Assembly: GCF_013185185.1 (NCBI RefSeq)
Contig: NZ_JAAZWE010000006.1
Span: forward strand, 248,001 to 312,000
Source of the DNA: Saccharibacillus endophyticus
Lineage (GTDB): Bacteria; Bacillota; Bacilli; Paenibacillales; Paenibacillaceae
DNA length: 64,000 nt
Direction: 5' to 3'
In this document: positions 2,027 through 45,964 of the stretch, piece by piece
How positions within the stretch are numbered: position 1 is the first letter of the stretch
Layout of the letters: every line of letters starts with the position of its first letter
The notes under the pieces: generated by a model
The model's database searches: none
The model's input: only the letters and a program-made list of their open reading frames with translations
What the model was told of the DNA's origin: nothing
Translations under genes and position numbers: made by a program

Positions 2027-2291
2027 AAAAAAAAAGAAGCACCCTGCAAATTCCAAAAGGATCTGCATACTTGAACGACGATCCGGCAGCTTGACCAACC
2101 ATAAGCAGGGTTTACGTTCGCCTGAAACGCACACGCTTTAGGTGCGCTTCCGTTGGAGACTTCGTACACGCTTTAGGTACGAAATCTCAGGCGGACGTAA
2201 CCTTACGTTTAATTTGGTCAAGCTACCAGGCCAGGCTTCGGAAAAACCTGAGAAAAATCGCGGTTCGGGGTGCTTCTCATATGATGTCGGC
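2027..2291 (-). ncRNA. Unidentified structured RNA of about 265 nt
   Basis: On the minus strand a long rod-like fold is closed by a 9-bp terminal helix (2268-2276 with 2036-2044) followed at once by nine U residues (2035-2027), a terminator-like end. Inside are a 14-bp helix (2214-2227 with 2085-2098) and a 12-bp helix (2187-2198 with 2114-2125). The 12-bp helix encloses two neighbouring hairpins (2158-2186 and 2125-2149), whose 9-nt apical loops are identical (CTAAAGCGT). Two side hairpins lie at 2059-2084 and about 2232-2250. An extended -10 (TGTTATAAT) is at 2299-2304. I do not recognise it as 6S, SRP, RNase P or tmRNA: it lacks their signature motifs. Confidence 0.65.
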
Positions 2292-2298
2292 TGACTGT

Positions 2299-2307
2299 AT
2301 TATAACA
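2299..2307 (-). promoter_or_regulatory. Extended -10 promoter of the structured RNA
   Basis: Minus-strand TGTTATAAT: a perfect TATAAT (2299-2304) with an upstream TG. No good -35 is seen at 16-18 bp. Initiation would fall near 2291, about 15 nt before the terminal helix. Confidence 0.55.
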
Positions 2308-2350
2308 ACGACTTGAATCTGTCTCTGTGATTGAAATCACGTACTTCGTA

Positions 2351-45663: not shown

Positions 45664-45964
45664 AAAAAGCCCCCCGCCCGCCGGCGTCGTAAACGCCAGG
45701 GACGAGAGGCATTGCTTCCCGTGGTACCACCCTGATTAGCGGACAAGCCGCTCACTCAAATATCCGATAACGGGGATCAACCGATGCGACCGGACGTCTT
45801 TTCCGTAAAAACCGGATGTACCGCCGTCTGTCCGCATAATCTCCGAGGCGAGTTCGTACAGGGTGCGCTGCCGGGCTTCCACCAACCGCCGGCTCTCTTG
45901 GAAACGTCCACCTGCCTACTGCTCCTCATCATCGACAAATCTTATCTTTGTTCACCTTTGCAAT
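45664..45964 (-). promoter_or_regulatory. T-box riboswitch controlling leuS (leucine)
   Basis: A leader of about 300 nt. It has the AGTAGGCAGG element of Stem I, the AAGAGAGCCGGCGGTTGGTGG region, and a putative specifier loop GAACTCGCC with a CTC leucine codon. The canonical T-box CAGGGTGGTACCACGGG is the complement of 45718-45734. A GC-rich terminator ends it (about 45669-45710) with five T residues (45668-45664). Uncharged tRNA-Leu should stabilise the antiterminator and turn leuS on. Confidence 0.93.

Follow-up and report, generated by a model that had tools for sequence, protein, structure and literature searches.

Organization of the segment between sbcC and the HIT gene

The segment described here lies between sbcC and a HIT gene in a stretch of 64,000 nucleotides from Saccharibacillus endophyticus, subsequently referred to as the window. 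On the minus strand, positions 2027-2304 contain a terminal helix, GAAGCACCC/GGGTGCTTC, which is followed by nine T at 2035-2027 and encloses further nested helices. They also contain two neighboring hairpins, A and B, whose stems differ while their 9-nt loop, CTAAAGCGT, is identical. An earlier note on this DNA had listed these elements together with an extended -10, and all of them could be found on the minus strand. The predicted minus-strand fold has an energy of -124.6 kcal/mol, compared with a mean of -73.2 for shuffled sequences (z = -11.1), and none of 200 shuffles folded as well; the plus strand reached z = -6.6 in the same kind of comparison.

Two components make up the segment: a minus-strand small-RNA gene and a palindromic repeat that jumped into its P2 arm (Table 1). 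The striking fold is thus real, yet composite. Two of the features in Table 1 were absent from the earlier note, namely the upstream box GTGATTTCAATCAC (2340-2327) and the nature of the twin-hairpin part as a dispersed repeat. Taken as a whole, the locus probably holds a small regulatory RNA gene, putatively activated by Fnr, that carries a MITE-like insertion in one arm.

Table 1. Features of the small-RNA gene and its insert, in window coordinates
Feature	Position	Strand	Remarks
CRP/FNR-type box GTGATTTCAATCAC (GTGA-N6-TCAC)	2327..2340	-	centre -41.5 from the inferred start
extended -10 TGTTATAAT	2299..2307	-	no -35 passed the consensus scan
small-RNA gene including insert, 266 nt from inferred start to end of U-run	2027..2292	-	ends deduced from -10 and T-run
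unpaired 5' tail AGCCGACATCATAT	2279..2292	-	CCGACA kept in 49/50 relatives
P1 5' strand GAGAAGCACCC, closing the three-way junction	2268..2278	-	
left target-site duplication CTGG	2226..2229	-	
inserted palindromic repeat, 139 nt, twin-hairpin form, in P2 arm	2087..2225	-	
repeat hairpin A	2156..2188	-	loop CTAAAGCGT at 2176-2168
repeat hairpin B	2124..2150	-	loop CTAAAGCGT at 2141-2133
right target-site duplication CCGG	2083..2086	-	CTGG in S. sacchari DSM 19268
P3 hairpin TGCAGATCC...GGAATTTGCA	2045..2067	-	
P1 3' strand and U-run, forming the terminator	2027..2046	-	U-run 2035-2027

The twin hairpins are part of an insertion

The order sbcC-HIT is kept in all 16 genomes of the genus. A conserved promoter is found in nine of the 16 gaps, together with a structured block whose last elements are a GGGTGCTTC-like strand and a T-run, and the remaining seven (61-151 nt) are without promoter and structured block. 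According to our repeat model, the palindromic repeat lies within two of the nine RNA-holding gaps, those of the window genome and of S. sacchari, while the other seven represent empty sites. When the element and one copy of the duplication are removed from the window sequence, 123 nt remain from the inferred start, compared with 121-123 nt in the seven uninterrupted relatives. The joined flanks align without gaps to the sequence of one of the genomes (G014; 96 of 123 positions identical) and fold into the same three-way junction as the relatives. The duplication pair reads CTGG and CCGG in the window and CTGG and CTGG in S. sacchari DSM 19268. The RNA carriers within the genus are the same nine genomes that carry the repeat, so descent alone may link the two.

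The earlier note had treated the segment as one RNA. Its fold has held up, but the twin-hairpin part (2225-2087) is not ancestral to the small RNA and is a dispersed repeat. The proposal that the function of the RNA resides in the hairpins with the constant loop is not supported: they sit in a transposed repeat that occurs at about 90 places in the genome and is present in two, absent from seven, of the nine Saccharibacillus gaps with RNA. It could be argued that a 265-nt RNA nevertheless works through these hairpins, the repeat perhaps having been put to use after its insertion, since the repeat has been kept at this site in the window genome and in S. sacchari DSM 19268 and loop B is nearly invariant among the repeat copies. 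We consider this very unlikely, because the insert is missing from seven of the nine Saccharibacillus RNAs and loop A differs in six other full twin copies that we read in the genome (L009-L014), where it is CTAACCCGT in five and CTAAACCGT in one. Compared with these six copies, identical twin loops are peculiar to the window copy.

In S. sacchari DSM 19268 we also observed a tandem duplication of 1,005 bp (L184, 2219-3071) that encompasses part of the repeat, the 3' part of the RNA and the whole HIT gene. It begins inside the repeat and ends next to a run of N; it may be a real recombination event between repeats or an assembly artefact.

A dispersed palindromic repeat

A search of the S. endophyticus genome with positions 2027-2285 returned 54 pieces, and those from other places covered the inner twin-hairpin part only (query positions 39-204 at most). 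The repeat comes in several forms: with one hairpin, with two hairpins as in the window, as a version of about 80 nt, and as tandem copies that share TACTAGTA. In four such tandem arrangements (L124 990-1200, L125 965-1184, L126 967-1185 and L127 987-1171), copies of different subfamilies have TACTAGTA in common at their junction, and their outer stems differ in sequence but are fully compensated.

The single-hairpin copies form one long imperfect hairpin. Of 28 such copies, 24 could be aligned over 112 columns nearly without gaps; the pieces L028, L030, L031 and L046 were left out of this alignment. In 22 of 39 pairs both sides have changed, and the covariation of the stem in the 24 copies amounts to 0.248, compared with 0.121 after shuffling. 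C-A mismatches in columns 37-39, which would read as G-U on the opposite strand, may point to a strand preference of the repeat; elsewhere both kinds are about equally frequent. A covariance model (R1) gave 133 matches in the S. endophyticus genome, 41 of which proved by hand count to be the same palindrome read again on the other strand. The repeat therefore occupies at least about 92 places, a lower bound since 150 of 1271 candidates were scored. It is found in 10 of 39 genomes: S. endophyticus itself, eight of the 15 other genus members, and one genome of another family (G028), where there are two weak matches. We examined 800 kb of one contig, of which 88% is coding according to a crude ORF caller; 14 of the 20 copies listed there have at least 90% of their length outside ORFs.

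The ends of the repeat consist of CTAG followed by TACCTTGTCAAC. We compared the left four bases (model positions 3-6) with the right four (109-112) at places in the S. endophyticus genome and seven others; of 53 places, six that were not 111-113 nt long were left out. In the resulting 47 copies, on average 2.72 of four bases agree as direct repeats, compared with 2.20 after shuffling (z 6.1). This is the second-best value of all offsets and lengths scanned, and the best (z 6.2) is obtained when this place is extended by one base. Complementarity of the flanks did not exceed the shuffled level at 3, 4 and 5, whereas at 6 it did so slightly (0.66 compared with 0.55).

Judged by these sequence features, the repeat is a transposed, MITE-like element. 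It resembles MITEs in its inverted ends, a 4-bp target duplication, a length of about 100-150 bp, about 90 copies and a mostly intergenic location. It differs from them in that no autonomous partner was found and in that it forms a hairpin from end to end, with a loop that is conserved and stems that covary; among the solo-end copies that we read, none belonged to an autonomous element. REP/BIME elements, which are moved by RAYT proteins, likewise occur as many intergenic hairpin copies per genome. In contrast to them, the repeat described here has a target duplication, and no Y1 transposase was detected in the nine repeat-carrying genomes of the genus. The one genome out of 16 that has a Y1 transposase (G007) is without the repeat, and mobilization by a Y1/RAYT enzyme was therefore rejected. 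For DDE_Tnp_1, we found one fragment in the S. endophyticus genome; seven of the nine repeat carriers have some match and two have none.

Distribution and conservation of the small RNA

A second model (R2), comprising promoter and RNA, was built from the seven uninterrupted Saccharibacillus copies. It detected exactly one copy in each of 95 of the 197 genomes of the family, distributed over 6 of 19 genera; across the order there were 94 positive genomes out of 246, all from the same family. Both runs used stricter filters, so weak copies may have been missed. Carriers named among 27 of 80 scan loci and the window are S. sacchari, S. alkalitolerans, S. deserti, S. qingshengii, S. kuerlensis and the Saccharibacillus strains O23 and CPCC 101409, as well as Paenibacillus macquariensis, P. 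antarcticus and P. caui. The best match in Saccharibacillus sp. JS10 reached 11.6 bits (E 0.02).

We read 50 of the 95 copies, namely the 30 best ones plus 20 selected from another three genera. The C-terminus of SbcC was present in the stretch for 42 of them and the HIT protein for 41, with at least one of the two in 48. Among the seven uninterrupted sequences, both partners have changed in 19 of 39 pairs; covariation is 0.415, compared with 0.239 after shuffling (0 of 500 as high) and at most 0.134 for slid pairings. With all 50 sequences, in an alignment fitted to the model, the corresponding values are 0.624, 0.174 and at most 0.127. Here 37 of 39 pairs have changed on both sides, which is less telling because shuffles average 32.7. 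The most divergent copies are L178, L179 and L180 from one genus (g8), in which the promoter is kept, the body and P1 differ, and GAGTATAA follows the box in place of GATACAG.

Neither the RNA nor the repeat of the window was matched in a search of Rfam 15 at gathering and permissive thresholds, and the same applied to both at the RNA loci of nine relatives and at two repeat loci. The sole hit over the segment, PVT1_3 (11.9 bits, E 1), was dismissed as chance. The earlier view of the segment as a structured RNA that had not been identified before is borne out by these searches and by the homologous sbcC-HIT gaps, in which related structured segments occur and the fold covaries above shuffled sequences. 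Altogether, the small RNA looks like an uncatalogued family with an FNR-type promoter. The same search placed a T-box leader at 45695-45941 of the window (minus strand), above the Rfam gathering score.

We also considered that the segment might encode a small protein. An ATG frame of at least 20 codons is found in 14 of the 50 copies. However, the longest ATG frame has fewer than 10 codons in 29 of the 50 (median 5), and the feature that is conserved is the fold. This explanation is hardly credible and was rejected on these grounds.

Promoter box and candidate regulator

The -10 is present in all 50 copies, and the transcription start that we derive from it, position 2292 in the window, agrees with the start near 2291 proposed before. 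A consensus scan reported no promoter with a -35 at the small-RNA gene. The GTGA-N6-TCAC box occurs in 49 of the 50 copies and is centred at -41.5 from the start derived from the -10 in all 49. CCGACA is found among the first transcribed bases in 49 copies, and GCCGACAT in 39. A box centred at -41.5 has the geometry of a class II CRP/FNR activator; in the window and in 49 of 50 copies, the RNA thus has a promoter of its own with an FNR-type site at the distance expected of an activator. In the window alone, the box is unremarkable (one found, 0.69 expected). For comparison, TGTGANNNNNNTCACA is cited as FNR consensus in Table 1 of PMC8151001.

The S. endophyticus genome encodes a CRP/FNR protein (L114) that ends in CELCPNEIC and thus has a C-terminal Cx2Cx4C pattern, which is the same in all 14 genomes read. 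According to a passage in PMC8139620, a C-terminal cluster sets the Fnr of B. subtilis apart. The protein scores above the cut-off of no NCBIfam family, with CRP as the best score, so that we call it Fnr on the grounds of its cysteine motif and the box. From its sequence, we regard it as a candidate Bacillus-type Fnr and putative cluster binder. At E<=1e-100, 94 of 95 RNA carriers and 9 of 102 non-carriers have a homologue of the protein, with a cut-off chosen after the values had been seen and an association counted regardless of descent. Six Saccharibacillus genomes without the RNA have a homologue at 75-79% identity. In one of the genomes without the RNA (G015), fnr appeared to be a pseudogene; this was rejected since the stop precedes the likely start, and we therefore do not claim a co-loss of RNA and Fnr.

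The box also occurs within 350 bases upstream of the fnr candidate in all 14 genomes read, three of which are without the RNA. In S. endophyticus it takes the form GTGAAAAAAGTCAC, and boxes lie at this place in the 13 further genomes. This suggests autoregulation or control by Rex. In 800 kb of the S. endophyticus genome we counted 24 strand-wise boxes. Three of them, at two sites, stand at class II spacing from a -10 that has 5 or 6 matches; the better of these sites (centre about -42.5) precedes a gene whose first 237 residues match NirB. Six control palindromes gave 18 matches in the same 800 kb, none of them with a -10 of 5-6 matches and one with 4 of 6.

Alternatively, the same RNA with the same insertion could have a box that is read by a second protein of the CRP/FNR family or by the redox repressor Rex, in which case the RNA would respond to a different signal or to the NADH/NAD ratio. 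The recognition helix R-E-x-x-x-R reads GTGA, and it is also present in another protein (L115); the S. endophyticus genome has 13 matches to HTH_Crp_2. Several of the boxes at fnr read GTGAAA, which is Rex-like too. Rex of S. aureus binds TGTGAn6TCACA, as stated in a passage of PMC2883068, and Rex is therefore a live rival. However, a distance of -41.5 in 49 of 49 copies is activator geometry and fits a repressor poorly, and the box recurs upstream of fnr and nirB. Control by another regulator thus seems unlikely to us, and Fnr is the activator that we prefer.

Possible function and related systems

We infer that the RNA is transcribed, controlled by Fnr and active in trans, the last because of its free promoter and terminator, closed fold and constant unpaired 5' tail. 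When oxygen falls, a Bacillus-type Fnr would bind the GTGA-N6-TCAC box at -41.5 and activate, in class II fashion, a promoter that has an extended -10 and lacks a good -35. The transcript would begin at 2292, P2 and P3 would fold, and P1 would close the three-way junction and end transcription at the U-run. The RNA would then act in trans, with its conserved unpaired 5' tail as the most likely pairing site. The MITE-like repeat, having inserted with a CTGG duplication, would only lengthen the P2 arm, without damage to the promoter, the tail, P1, P3 or the terminator.

Around 686 ORF starts (roughly placed starts in 800 kb of the 5.94 Mb genome), complements of the 5' tail were no more frequent than in shuffles: there were 23 seven-mers (23.2 expected from shuffles), 3 eight-mers (5.1) and 0 nine-mers (1.1), which leaves the target claim unsupported. 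The start of glnA appeared on the list of best pairing energies and was discounted as one of 686 tries. It is possible that the tail is conserved as initial transcribed sequence. The lack of excess targets would also fit an RNA that binds a protein as a sponge, or one that merely terminates sbcC transcription under a conserved promoter; the closed fold and a U-run located just ahead of the HIT promoter point in the same direction. However, a terminator needs neither an activator box at a fixed distance nor a constant 5' tail nor two covarying arms, and we think that such a role is improbable compared with regulation in trans.

Among known systems, FnrS has its own promoter with an activator site, an intrinsic terminator and anaerobic induction. 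The RNA described here is similar in its own promoter with FNR-type activator site and its intrinsic terminator, and anaerobic induction would be expected for it. It differs in that it matches no Rfam family, FnrS included, and in forming a three-way junction closed by the terminator stem, at the sbcC-HIT locus of a Gram-positive family. By its presumed control logic the RNA would work like FnrS, while it stands outside the FnrS family by sequence and fold. It seems to us an even chance that this single-copy, putatively Fnr-activated RNA in much of the Paenibacillaceae is the equivalent of FnrS in Gram-positives, built on a three-way junction of its own and equipped with a constant 5' seed. 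In passages of a review on nitrate respiration, a table places FnrS of E. coli under FNR control, and RoxS/RsaE is given as the small RNA of Bacillus and Staphylococcus, with ResDE, not Fnr, as its activator (PMC8139620). RoxS/RsaE, according to the same passages, is likewise a Gram-positive small RNA of respiration and redox control, and it differs in its control by ResDE rather than through an FNR box; the RNA here is without Rfam match.

If our reading is correct, the RNA would be a post-transcriptional arm of the anaerobic switch in Paenibacillaceae, and a robust one, since a transposon would have more than doubled its length with the control regions untouched. With a conserved RNA under an FNR-type promoter, it would become possible to test RNA control by Fnr in Gram-positives directly, in a family whose genera Paenibacillus and Saccharibacillus are of agricultural interest. 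The locus offers a clean natural experiment on a structured RNA that survived a large transposon in one arm, and it warns that a striking fold can be composite. In literature mostly outside subscription papers, we found no title or abstract that reports the RNA or the repeat. For P. riograndensis, 27 small RNAs have been described, of which three belong to known families and the others are without assigned function, as summarized in a part of PMC5670726. The small RNA may be present among these unassigned ones.
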